The translations under genes and the position numbers were made by a program. From NCBI GenBank assembly GCA_030601865.1, contig JAUWAW010000001.1, positions 1 through 46,432 on the forward strand: a stretch of DNA of 46,432 bases, written 5' to 3'. This document shows positions 38,173 to 46,048 of the stretch, one piece after another (position 1 is the stretch's first letter; each line of letters opens with the position of its first letter). The stretch comes from Candidatus Nealsoniibacteriota bacterium (GTDB lineage: Bacteria > Patescibacteriota > Minisyncoccia > Minisyncoccales > JAUWAW01). The notes under the pieces are model-generated. The model was not told where the DNA came from and made no database searches. It saw nothing but the letters and a program-made list of their open reading frames with translations.

Positions 38173-38688
38173 TCATTGTTTATTGATTGCACGAAGTGCA
38201 TAAATAAGACCTTTAATGTTTGCTTCTAATACCTGCACAAAATTTGACACCGGTGCTTTTATGCTGACCACCAATCTTGCCCATAATTCTTCTTGAGAAG
38301 GCAATTCAGCCAAAGTAACTAAATATTCTTTGCCTTGAAACTGATTTTCTAAAAAGCCTCCTAAAATTTTAAGATTACCTTGCTCTTTTGAGAAATTATA
38401 AATTGCTTTTAACGGTGCTATCTCATCTCCAAATGCAAAAAGAACACCTAACTGCCCTTCAAATTTTTTAACGTCTACTCTTATTTTCTTTTCTTTTAGA
38501 ACAAGGTTGAACAAGGTCTTTTTGCAAACCTGAAAGACCGAGTCAAGATCCCTTAATCTTTTTTTCAACTCAAAAAGGTCTTTCACTTTAAGACCCTTAA
38601 AGTCAACAAAAACCATTGCCTTTTGACGAGCCATTTTCTCTTTTAAGTTCTCAATATTTTTTTGTTTTTGCTCCTTTGTTAAAGCCAT
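38173..38688 (-). CDS. rplJ: 50S ribosomal protein L10
   Basis: The 171-aa stalk base protein binds 23S rRNA and L12 dimers. The start MALTKEQKQKNIENLKEKMARQKAMVFVDFKGL is typical of the family, and the C-terminal helix NFVQVLEANIKGLIYALRAI is the L12-binding helix. ATG 38688 is preceded directly by the T-run of an attenuator, so no free SD is present. rplL follows. The rplK-rplA genes often found upstream are replaced by a DJ-1 family gene. Confidence 0.94.
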   Translation of the reverse strand: MALTKEQKQKNIENLKEKMARQKAMVFVDFKGLKVKDLFELKKRLRDLDSVFQVCKKTLFNLVLKEKKIRVDVKKFEGQLGVLFAFGDEIAPLKAIYNFSKEQGNLKILGGFLENQFQGKEYLVTLAELPSQEELWARLVVSIKAPVSNFVQVLEANIKGLIYALRAINKQ

Positions 38689-38783
38689 AAAAAATGTCTG
38701 CTTGCCGCAGACATAATAGTAATTGGACATCGGATGTCCAACAAGTTCCTCGGCAGGACTTACCTTGCCTGCTGTCTGCGGTT
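38689..38783 (-). promoter_or_regulatory. L10 leader with competing terminator (attenuator)
   Basis: On the minus strand, CCGCAGACA (38781-38773) can pair with TGTCTGCGG (38713-38705), enclosing GCAGG/CCTGC and GGACATC/GATGTCC hairpins and the CCTGCCGAGG sequence typical of L10 leaders. TGTCTGC instead can pair with GCAGACA to form a terminator (38714-38694) with T6 (38694-38689) touching the rplJ start codon. The two folds exclude each other. Confidence 0.75.
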
Positions 38784-38799
38784 AAATATTAATTATTAA

Positions 38800-42920: not shown

Positions 42921-42954
42921 GTTTTTTCCTCCAGAGAGCTACCAGTAGGACCGA

Positions 42955-42990
42955 GCCCCCACACCAAACGAAACGTTATGGTGTGGGGGC
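42955..42990. repeat. Intergenic CCCCCACACC palindrome
   Basis: Arms GCCCCCACACCA (42955-42966) and TGGTGTGGGGGC (42979-42990) with an inner AACG/CGTT stem. Third copy of the family found in two genes. Confidence 0.9.
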
Positions 42991-43043
42991 GAGGAGAGAG
43001 ATTTCATTGGCCCTACTGACAACTCCCTGAAGAAAATCTCGTT

Positions 43044-43086
43044 TGTGGATAACTATACTTGACAGAATTTCTAATTTTGCTATCTT
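43044..43086 (+). promoter_or_regulatory. Promoter of the small RNA locus with DnaA-box-like site
   Basis: TGTGGATAA (43044-43052), then TTGACA (43059-43064), 16 nt, TATCTT (43081-43086). The layout matches the lexA promoter, with the box 6-7 bp ahead of the -35. Confidence 0.6.
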
Positions 43087-43092
43087 ATAACT

Positions 43093-43167
43093 AGCGGGTA
43101 TCAATCGATGCCATATCCTTATTAAGAGGACCAAGGCAACATCTTCAAGATTGGAGATGTTGTTTTT
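43093..43167 (+). ncRNA. Putative small RNA 1 (about 75 nt)
   Basis: It runs from the predicted start after the 43059 promoter to a terminator. Segment A (43095-43108) and segment B (43111-43132) are complementary to A' (43234-43247, 14 of 14) and B' (43251-43273, about 19 of 22) in the next RNA. No reading frame of note and no known family. Confidence 0.5.
43137..43167 (+). terminator. Intrinsic terminator of small RNA 1
   Basis: CAACATCT (43137-43144), a 10-nt loop, AGATGTTG (43155-43162), then T5. Confidence 0.7.
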
Positions 43168-43188
43168 CTTTCTATCCATAGTTATAAT
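43160..43188 (+). promoter_or_regulatory. Possible second promoter in the RNA locus
   Basis: TTGTTT (43160-43165), 17 nt, TATAAT (43183-43188); would start RNA 2 near 43195. Confidence 0.4.
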
Positions 43189-43194
43189 TAAACT

Positions 43195-43332
43195 GCGGAG
43201 GTACGGGGAGGCTGAAACCAGACGGTCTGGTCGTCGATTGATACCCGAACGGTCCTATTTAATTAGGATGTGGTTCGACTCCACCGGCCTCCGTGCCAAA
43301 GCAAGTCCGAATTCCGGGCTTGTTTTGGTTTT
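43195..43332 (+). ncRNA. Putative structured RNA 2 with tRNA-like fold but no anticodon
   Basis: GGAGGCTG (43207-43214) pairs over 8 bp with CGGCCTCC (43285-43292), followed by a G like a discriminator. ACCAGA/TCTGGT (43217-43222, 43226-43231) forms a 6-bp D-like stem. TCCTA/TAGGA (43253-43257, 43264-43268) resembles a variable arm. GTGG-TTCGACT-CCAC (43270-43284) is a T arm. The 8-bp acceptor, 6-bp D stem and G discriminator recall tRNA-Sec, but the anticodon arm region (43232-43250) gives only a bulged stem with a 9-nt loop and no TCA. A terminator hairpin (43296-43332) ends it. Confidence 0.5.
43296..43332 (+). terminator. Intrinsic terminator of RNA 2
   Basis: CCAAAGCAAGTCC pairs with GGGCTTGTTTTGG allowing two G-T pairs, followed by TTTTC. 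Confidence 0.6.
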
Positions 43333-43451: not shown

Positions 43452-43685
43452 TTAGTCGTCGTCATCCTCGAAATCAATCCGTACTTTTAACTTGACGCCA
43501 TATTTGTCAGCCACAGATTTCAACTCATCAGCTTCCTTATAAATCTCTGCTGCGGCTTCGTTTCCGATATAAAGATCAGAGTGCGGATCCAAAGGGTTAT
43601 CTAACACTGGTTCAGTTGGCCCTTCGGCGCAACTTGCCAGCATCACCACGAGGATAATTCCTACGACACAAATTACTGCTTTCAT
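43452..43685 (-). CDS. Small lipoprotein, unrecognised
   Basis: The 77-aa frame from ATG 43685, with AAAGGAAAG upstream as SD. MKAVICVVGIILVVMLASC is a lipoprotein signal with lipobox LASC. The mature part begins AEGPTEPVLDNPLDPHS, a Pro/Asn motif common at the start of lipoproteins in Bacteroidota- and Poribacteria-like genomes, and ends in an acidic IDFEDDDD tail. I know no function. Strong SD and style match the sorting-domain gene at 1335, so both could come from the same foreign source. It lies in the region that splits rpsP from khpA. Confidence 0.7.
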   Translation of the reverse strand: MKAVICVVGIILVVMLASCAEGPTEPVLDNPLDPHSDLYIGNEAAAEIYKEADELKSVADKYGVKLKVRIDFEDDDD

Positions 43686-45185: not shown

Positions 45186-45229
45186 TGTCAAGACGAATTA
45201 CGAATTATGAATTACGAATTATGAATATT
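45186..45229. repeat. AATTACGAATTATG repeat between nusB and rnc
   Basis: Direct GAATTACGAATTATGAATTACG units followed by partly complementary ATTCTTGATTCTTAATTC that runs into the nusB 3' end. Same family as 10987-11053 and 45687-45768. Confidence 0.7.
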
Positions 45230-45685
45230 TTATTCTTGATTCTTAATTCGTGATTCTTGATTCGTTTCTCCTAATTGCTTATACACCGTGCCCAAGACGC
45301 CGTTAATAAACTTGCCTGAGCTTTCCCCGCCAAAGGTCTTGGCCAATTCAATGGCTTCGTTAATAGCCACTTTGGGCGGCACTTCTTCTTTCTTGCTAAA
45401 CAATAACTCATAAAGGCCAATTCTTAAAACATTTCTGTCAACAATGGTTATTTGCTCTACTGGCCATTCTGGGGCTGCCTTTTCAATTATTTTATCAATT
45501 TGCGGCAGTTTACTGCTGATGCCATTAATCAGCTGCCAGATGAAATCTGTATTTTCCAAGCCCGGCCCAAATTCTTTGATATTGCGCTCAACAATTTTCT
45601 TAAGTTGGCCTGGCTTTTTGCCGGAAAAATCCCATTCGTATAAAGATTGCATCACGATTGAACGTGATAGATGACGAGAAGCCAT
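45230..45685 (-). CDS. nusB: Transcription antitermination factor NusB
   Basis: The 151-aa all-helical protein acts in rRNA antitermination with S10. The start [22 protein letters not shown] is the usual RxxAxxxLY region, and [30 protein letters not shown] is the hallmark C-terminal motif. The last ten residues ([11 protein letters not shown]) are encoded by the dispersed ATTCTTGATTC repeat, so the natural end was probably near KQLGE. Lies between rpmF and rnc. Confidence 0.93.
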
Positions 45686-45686
45686 T

Positions 45687-45763
45687 TTGAAAGACGAATT
45701 ACGAATAACGAATTAAGAATTATGAATATTTTATTCTTAATTCCTGATTCTTAATTCATAATT
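45687..45763. repeat. AATTACGAATAACG repeat palindrome between rpmF and nusB
   Basis: GACGAATTACGAATAACGAATTAAGAATTATG and a complementary ATTCTTAATTCATAATTC half meet at an AATATTTTATT centre. Confidence 0.7.
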
Positions 45764-46048
45764 CTATTCACGTGACATTTGTTCCCAAGTTAAGGGTTTT
45801 GCCTTTTTCTCTTCTTTCTCCTTGGCTGCCAATTCTTTTTCTTTTTGCTTTTTTTCTTTTTTGGTCAATTTTTTCAAGACATCAATGATTGCCTTTCCTT
45901 TATAATAACCGCAATTTGAGCAAACAGTATGGGGCCTGGTTGGGTTGCCGCATTTGGGGCATTTAACCAAAGAAGGCCCTTTGATAAAGATATGCATCCT
46001 TCTCTGATTGCGGCGGCTCTTTGTTTTTCTTTGCTTGGGAACTGCCAT
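45764..46048 (-). CDS. rpmF: 50S ribosomal protein L32 with extended tail
   Basis: A 94-aa L32, against about 60 usually. MAVPKQRKTKSRRNQRRMH is the family start. The zinc ribbon CPKCGNPTRPHTVCSNCGYYKGK has all four cysteines. The C-terminal extension is a charged helix (KKEKKQKEKELAAKEKEEKKAK). It follows rnhB by 23 nt. Confidence 0.94.
   Translation of the reverse strand: MAVPKQRKTKSRRNQRRMHIFIKGPSLVKCPKCGNPTRPHTVCSNCGYYKGKAIIDVLKKLTKKEKKQKEKELAAKEKEEKKAKPLTWEQMSRE

Follow-up and report, generated by a model that had tools for sequence, protein, structure and literature searches.

Allo-tRNAs (Mukai et al. 2017, reviewed by Krahn et al. 2020, PMC7609411) are described, in the parts of the review used here, as having an 8/4 acceptor/T branch and SerRS identity. 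According to the same parts, their anticodons are mostly non-serine and include an Ile one (UAU), SerRS does not recognise the anticodon, and the reported examples come from Clostridia, Proteobacteria and Acidobacteria (PMC7609411). The RNA-RNA toxin-antitoxin SdsR/RyeA consists, as outlined in an excerpt of its description, of two mutually cis-encoded small RNAs, one of which counters the other (PMC6610125). CreTA, as given in excerpts of two reports, pairs an RNA toxin with an RNA antitoxin and involves tRNA biology; there CreA guides a CRISPR effector that represses CreT transcription (PMC8501985, PMC9458426). Loops of the Y-U-N-R (U-turn) type serve fast antisense contacts, e.g. in hok/Sok and RNAII/RNAIII (PMC6562991, in part).

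The window, that is, the whole stretch of 46,432 nucleotides that was analysed, holds at 43059-43326 (+) two small RNA genes in tandem, RNA 1 then RNA 2. To our knowledge, a dedicated antisense RNA that co-varies with its target has been described for no tRNA, and a literature search over titles and abstract openings found none. Each half of the module resembles a known kind, RNA 2 an allo-tRNA and RNA 1 an antisense RNA, and the new part is their combination. RNA 2 shares with allo-tRNAs the 8/4 branch, SerRS identity and a non-serine anticodon, a likeness of structure and identity elements; unlike them, it mostly carries GAU and has a linked RNA 1 in all copies found, whereas the consulted parts of the review mention no antisense RNA and no patescibacterial source. 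As in SdsR/RyeA, there would be two small RNAs, one of them countering the other, but the two genes do not overlap, lie on the same strand and have a tRNA as the target. As in CreTA, an RNA toxin would be held by an RNA antitoxin, but through pairing of RNA 1 with RNA 2 and without a CRISPR part. The predicted contact of an antisense RNA with a target loop recalls the Y-U-N-R systems, the difference being that the target loop is here a tRNA anticodon loop.

The earlier note on this DNA, made from the letters of the window, had proposed paired RNA genes with their own promoters and terminators, and this layout stood when the coordinates were re-checked. All features are on the (+) strand. The RNA 1 promoter (43059-43086) consists of TTGACA at 43059-43064, a 16-nt spacer and a TG-extended −10 box, TATCTT, at 43081-43086, and the latter was used to place the start of RNA 1, a predicted antisense RNA of ∼76 nt (43093-43168). 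Its terminator, a hairpin and T-run, occupies 43138-43168, and within it TTGTTT (43160-43165) falls at the −35 place of RNA 2. The −10 box of RNA 2, TATAAT (43183-43188), ends 6 nt before the predicted start at 43195, from which the transcript would run through a 5′ leader (43195-43205) and a tRNA-like body (43207-43293) to a terminator at about 43299-43326; both transcript ends are predictions.

Relatives were collected from Patescibacteria genomes with covariance models of RNA 2, first R1 and then R2, the latter built from 32 copies. A BLAST search of 100 genomes, that of the window included, had given two relatives, and a pattern search gave hits in 16 of 247 genomes of the order (reversed control, 1). 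Within the order the covariance model separates the family from tRNAs, with full-length copies at ≥76 bits and the rest at ≤43, and it located 29 RNA 2 places in 20 of the 247 genomes plus one cut copy (G199). Three more copies came from a sample of the class (383 genomes), three from a sample of the phylum (379 genomes; 76, 56 and 56 bits) and twelve from another class (333 genomes; eleven at ≥65 bits, one at 48), making 47 in total, or 46 distinct copies since L195 and L196 are near-identical. Some genomes carry two to four unlike copies (four in G208, three in G212). Thirteen named public records that match the pattern contain 13 of the 47 copies; these records include several Ca. Staskawiczbacteria, Gribaldobacteria and other Paceibacterota or Parcubacteria. 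Matches below 45 bits, apart from the cut copy in G199, were excluded as presumed ordinary tRNAs, and the window's tRNA-Val (35.7 bits) was dropped before counting. For 12 excluded loci that were printed (L048-L051, L054, L119-L125), ARAGORN, which was run on all except L120 and L124, called tRNA-Ser, apart from L048, a tRNA-Ile (TAT).

The fold of RNA 2 is that of a tRNA. In the alignments (A3 and A4), which were fitted to the covariance model, the cloverleaf of 8-bp acceptor, 6-bp D stem, anticodon stem, variable arm and 4-bp T stem is 93.6% paired over 32 copies, with two-sided changes at 24 of 30 pairs and a covariation of 0.628, against 0.209 for shuffled and ≤0.118 for slid alignments. 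By stem, pairing reaches 94.9% in the acceptor, 99.2% in the T stem and 96.4% in the variable arm, and 15 further copies have canonical bases at 414 of 433 pairs. The 32-copy alignment thus bears out the tRNA shape that had been read from the window, with its 8-bp acceptor, 6-bp D stem and discriminator G. In window coordinates the acceptor 5′ strand (43207-43214) forms 8 bp with 43285-43292 and is followed by a D arm of 6 bp with a 3-nt loop (43217-43231; two-sided changes in 6/6 pairs). The alignment of copies places a long variable arm of 6 bp at 43252-43269 and a T arm with a 4-bp stem and the loop UUCGACU at 43270-43284; the acceptor 3′ strand and discriminator G73 lie at 43285-43293, the discriminator being 43293.

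The 5′ leader, GCGGAGG..., duplicates the acceptor 5′ strand; its possible partner is CCUCCGY, which takes in the discriminator. Over 32 copies it can pair at 96%, with two-sided changes in 2 of 7 pairs; the pairing is mostly invariant, so that covariation is weak. On this ground, and because the leader is missing in some relatives (L117, L118 and L201), a role as a co-varying switch is no more than possible. The leader might cap the 3′ end of RNA 2.

The view of the earlier note that the locus matches no RNA family known to it holds in that no Rfam family reaches gathering level; it does not hold for kinship, which appears in a sub-threshold match to tRNA-Sec and in an allo-tRNA-like structure with the corresponding identity elements. 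The best sub-threshold Rfam match of RNA 2 is tRNA-Sec (RF01852), at 32.3 bits against a gathering cut-off of 47. Like RNA 2, tRNA-Sec has an 8-bp acceptor, a 6-bp D stem with a short loop, a long variable arm and G73; its anticodon, UCA, differs from the GAU of the window and is found in none of the 47 copies. Nine matches in the same genome outscore RNA 2 on RF01852, and the eight that were run through ARAGORN are all ordinary tRNAs; since ordinary tRNAs score higher, RNA 2 is not a tRNA-Sec. A T-box riboswitch (no T-box match for the locus in cmscan up to E 10), a tmRNA (no Rfam tmRNA match and no ARAGORN tmRNA call) and the other Rfam families (no match for the locus) were likewise rejected.

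The identity elements of SerRS are G73, a long variable arm and a Ser-type acceptor, and both LeuRS and TyrRS want A73. G73 is present in 46 of the 47 RNA 2 copies, the exception being L203 with A73. The window's genome has five tRNA-Ser genes, with acceptor ends such as GGAGGGG...CCCCCTCC-G; the RNA 2 acceptor, GGAGGCU...GGCCUCC-G, resembles these, including tRNA-Ser(UGA), and differs from that of tRNA-Ile(GAU) of the same genome, GGGCGCG...CGCGCCC-A. Among those scanned, the next-best matches of the RNA 2 model are mostly ordinary tRNA-Ser. By these features (8/4 acceptor/T branch, long variable arm, Ser-like acceptor, G73) the body of RNA 2 is of serine type. It has the 12-bp acceptor branch of allo-tRNAs (8/4 or 9/3) in the 8/4 form together with all three SerRS identity elements.

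The earlier note was mistaken in finding no anticodon in RNA 2. The window copy has an anticodon-type loop, A31-U32-U33-G34-A35-U36-A37-C38-C39, with GAU at 43240-43242, and relatives whose loop is standard are called tRNA-Ile(GAU) by ARAGORN. The consensus of the loop is N31-Y32-U33-N34-N35-N36-A37-A/C38-N39, and in the 32 copies Y32, a purine at 34, A35 and A37 are present in all 32 and U33 in 30, while the adjacent stem positions vary freely. The loop appears enlarged because 31·39 is mismatched: 19 of 32 copies lack a standard pair there, and a base is also bulged. The anticodon stem is irregular in the group to which the window belongs, which may make for poor decoding; in the other groups the loop is mostly standard. 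The 47 anticodons (the last 15 read by eye) are GAU in 38 copies, AAC in 4, GAA in 2, and AAU, AAG and GCG in 1 each. Thus, with A35 in 46/47 copies, the anticodon reads NUN, that is, mostly hydrophobic, codons.

Among the copies scanned, ARAGORN calls tRNA-Ile(GAU) in 12 relatives (L116, L118 and 10 of the 12 loci L193-L204) and gives no call for the window RNA 2, the three L083 copies, L117 and L204. It calls L203 (G1099) a tRNA-Arg(GCG); this copy has both an Arg-type anticodon and A73, and its genome holds a second copy, with GAU (L200). Of the features expected of a tRNA-Ile, RNA 2 has the anticodon (GAU in 38/47) and lacks the short variable loop, A73 and Ile-type acceptor, having a long variable arm and G73 in their place. 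A serine-type body with an Ile-type anticodon makes RNA 2 resemble an allo-tRNA and, since SerRS ignores the anticodon, it could receive serine. Among the genes called tRNA-Ile in Patescibacteria, some may hence be serine-type tRNAs, which bears on the reading of the genetic code in these organisms.

The conservation of the loop bears on an alternative in which RNA 2 does not decode and acts as a decoy or sponge for SerRS, EF-Tu, RNase P or an anticodon nuclease, with RNA 1 setting its level. The irregular anticodon stem of the window's group would suit a decoy, as would the mostly missing encoded CCA, though this is also missing from most tRNAs of the window's genome. For antisense binding, Y-U-N-R alone would suffice, judging from the consulted part of PMC6562991. 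However, the conserved U33, A35 and A37 and the predominance of GAU exceed the needs of a pure docking loop, and we consider a decoy improbable.

Each of the 47 RNA 2 copies has a linked RNA 1 (44 upstream, 3 downstream) with a block, A, that pairs with the anticodon arm. No RNA 2 without an RNA 1 was found among the 47; since RNA 2 was the query for all copies, the count is too low for orphan RNA 1s. In the window, block A (43096-43110) faces the A′ site, the anticodon-stem 5′ strand and anticodon loop (43232-43246), and block B (43111-43119), which abuts A, faces the B′ site, the variable-arm 3′ strand and T-stem 5′ strand (43265-43273). Over the whole window, the best complement of A′ outside RNA 2 is RNA 1, at −27.7 kcal/mol, with the next site at −19.5. 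The same is true of 32/32 loci searched within ∼2.8 kb on both strands (mean −23.0 kcal/mol, best other site −15.0) and of 15/15 further loci, where the closest rival is in L204 (−27.6 versus −21.5). Across loci, A duplexes average −22.4 for cognate and −10.6 for non-cognate combinations, and for each RNA 2 the cognate RNA 1 is among the best two of 32. Pairing with A is kept even in L015 and L089, where the T arm or acceptor is damaged.

The comparative check that the earlier note had suggested, a look for compensatory changes in A/A′ and B/B′, found both pairings kept and co-varying in relatives. A and B were each placed at the best site within 90-120 nt, and the pieces so chosen were used again when RNA 1s were dealt at random. 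On this footing, 93.3% of the A/A′ pairs are canonical, and changes on both sides affect 12 of 15 positions and 108 cells, where 1000 random deals gave at most 55; B/B′ is 95.5% canonical with 36 two-sided cells against a maximum of 22. The T-stem strands GUGG, GGAG, GGGG, GAAG, ACGG and GCGG are mostly matched by their B blocks, and the conserved loop core co-varies too (UUAAC/GUUAG in L023, CUAAU/AUUAG in L099, CUGCG/CGCAG in L203). On this comparison, the predicted partners of RNA 1 are the 5′ strand of the anticodon stem together with the anticodon loop, the 3′ strand of the variable arm and the 5′ strand of the T stem. A window copy that receives no ARAGORN call and stays below Rfam thresholds might suggest a decaying tRNA gene with a neighbour complementary to it by chance; this reading is refuted by the best-complement and covariation results, which show the pairing conserved and co-varying over several classes of the phylum, and we give it practically no weight.

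For B, a pairing of about 19 of 22 positions had been claimed from the window. What stands is a helix of 9-10 bp between RNA 1 and the variable-arm 3′ and T-stem 5′ strands, which is cognate-specific; pairing to the variable-arm 5′ strand is hardly better for cognate (−6.3) than for non-cognate (−5.2) combinations. Taken by itself, the window offers nothing special for B′, with −14.8 in RNA 1 against −15.0 elsewhere, and the predicted B pairing rests on the comparison across loci; it is unconvincing in L118 and weak in some other loci. The crossed order, A-B against A′-B′, had been seen correctly in the window. A and B are 0-3 nt apart in RNA 1 in 32/32 loci and, because of this adjacency, joint pairing would break three tRNA stems. 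Block A is mostly single-stranded. Net binding to a pre-folded RNA 2 is favourable for A (−13.1 kcal/mol) and unfavourable for B alone (+4.2), and A+B (−10.5) is better than A alone in just 8 of 32 loci. Nested co-folding of the window pair predicted no heteroduplex, partly because crossed pairs cannot be represented.

Cognate RNA 1-RNA 2 pairs are the strongest in 6/6 multi-copy genomes tested. Considered as anatomy, RNA 1 is very probably a dedicated antisense RNA to a serine-type tRNA with a mostly Ile anticodon.

Three loci carry additional complementary or RNA 1-like stretches. In G208, two RNA 1s (L083, upstream of 6670 and 12591) additionally contain sequence complementary to the entire T arm of two sister copies (−38.3 and −33.1 kcal/mol), as if one module were able to silence another. 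L118 has at ∼1400-1500 (−) a second RNA 1-like gene with a promoter, a UAUCA block and a terminator; a search of its genome gave no partner for this orphan, returning itself and one site with 3 mismatches (control, 4) that does not look tRNA-like. Directly after RNA 2 in L197 there is a stretch, TTTATCAGGCAATG, that resembles an extra A block.

Separate promoter-like sites for RNA 1 and RNA 2 were present in 33/33 loci scanned, a set that includes the cut copy G199 (L022, at a contig end), which was left out of the fold and pairing counts. The −35 of RNA 1 is exactly TTGACA in 32/33 loci, and its promoter is near-consensus (combined score ≥10 of 12) in 31/33, against 59 of 660 shuffles. RNA 2 mostly has an extended −10 (TG in 27/33) without a good −35, the box ending 6-7 nt ahead of RNA 2 in 32/33 loci. 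The usual order with ∼100-nt spacing, and an RNA 1 terminator that supplies the −35-like TTGTTT of RNA 2, could suggest that the two are one pseudoknotted RNA or that RNA 1 is a leader attenuating RNA 2. Against this stand the separate promoter-like sites, the position of RNA 1 3′ of RNA 2 in L117, L201 and L202, and L095, where 233 nt instead of the usual 94-116 lie between the RNA 1 promoter and RNA 2, with ∼130 nt of extra sequence between the RNAs. The downstream RNA 1s and L095 also speak for action in trans. A single pseudoknotted RNA was rejected on account of the downstream RNA 1s and the extra sequence, and we rate the one-RNA or leader reading as a whole very improbable. The extra sequence of L095 has inverted ends (CTCTGAAAAA...TTTTTCAGAG) and is MITE-like.

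The module lies among unrelated core genes. In the window, it sits with a 77-aa lipoprotein-like gene between rpsP and khpA, in a gap of ∼1.27 kb; the rpsP-khpA gap is ∼90-390 nt in 12 of 13 relatives with both genes, the other one (L189) having ∼1.0 kb. In G212, G213 and G214 the module and a small membrane-protein gene lie between rpoB and rpoC, antisense to both, and in G197 the module occupies the same place, next to a different small gene; the other sister genomes with a match, seven in number, have a short rpoB-rpoC gap of tens to <200 nt (rpoC was recognised by eye from its start). The small membrane-protein genes of these insertions differ in sequence from the lipoprotein-like ORF of the window. 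Other copies adjoin ftsZ/ftsA, ribonucleotide reductase genes, transketolase or, by eye from N-termini, ATP synthase genes. No neighbour gene is common to the whole family, and a link to a neighbour protein was rejected, the neighbours being unrelated core genes. A phage origin was also rejected, on the strength of no good match of the locus in phage records (best E ∼7) and no exact pattern match in IMG/VR, both weak tests for so variable an RNA.

Two features of the inserted stretch in the window may be recorded here. The lipoprotein-like ORF (43452-43685, −) has a lipobox-like LASC and an acidic end. Between khpA and RNA 1, a strong long hairpin (42942-43018; z −7.3) may be a bidirectional terminator or a piece of the insertion.

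The distribution bears on a reading in which RNA 2 is a regulated allo-tRNA for host benefit, a missense tRNA released under some stress, with RNA 1 as an ordinary off-switch and no addiction. The anatomy would be identical, the anticodon loop is kept as in a working tRNA, ARAGORN calls standard tRNA folds in another class, and some positions look inherited, the gene upstream of the module in both G102 and G120 being, we assume, an FtsJ-like methyltransferase gene. The patchy occurrence in the order (20/247 genomes with full-length copies), the several unlike copies per genome and the missing family-wide neighbour argue against it, and we regard a host-benefit role as rather unlikely.

The preferred reading is a dedicated, trans-acting antisense silencer and a tRNA able to put Ser at Ile codons, together forming a module like an RNA-RNA toxin-antitoxin; we put its chances at even or slightly below. 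Comparison of the copies supports the tRNA fold, the conservation of the anticodon loop, the co-varying trans pairing, the promoter-like sites and the insertion sites; transcription, charging, decoding, harm and addiction we infer. In this toxin-antitoxin-like scheme, RNA 2 would be allo-tRNA-like and charged with serine by SerRS and, if it decodes, Ser would be put at Ile codons. RNA 1, made from a strong promoter, would pair with it in trans: the 5′ tail (A) would dock first on the U-turn (Y-U-N-R) anticodon loop and open the anticodon stem, and B would pair with the variable-arm and T-stem strands mostly while RNA 2 is still being made and lacks the T-stem 3′ strand, so that the tRNA fold is blocked. 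This order is suggested by the energies on folded RNA 2, favourable for A and unfavourable for B alone. The module would then work as a toxin-antitoxin or addiction system of two RNAs, with insertion into core operons as a further property. The fuller proposal, in which the toxin is a serine-charged tRNA with a non-serine anticodon that miswrites proteins and is neutralised by the linked antisense RNA, the modules being mobile or repeatedly gained within Patescibacteria, with several mutually orthogonal copies in some genomes and a gene finder scoring RNA 2 as an ordinary tRNA-Ile in some, is tentative, and on balance we doubt it.

RNA-RNA toxin-antitoxins of the SdsR/RyeA type are classed as type VIII, and the module would become a variant of these if RNA 2 proves toxic. 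The question of the purpose of natural allo-tRNAs with 'wrong' anticodons would gain a testable answer, namely a cargo that needs silencing. The family also offers many orthogonal RNA pairs for the control of tRNAs.

Elsewhere in the window, AT-rich repeats (AATTACGAATTATGAAT... and its complement) were noticed by eye in two intergenic gaps, at 45193-45265 and 45692-45765. An ordinary ribosomal protein L10 leader (RF00557) lies at 38679-38799 (−), scoring 47.1 bits against a cut-off of 44.
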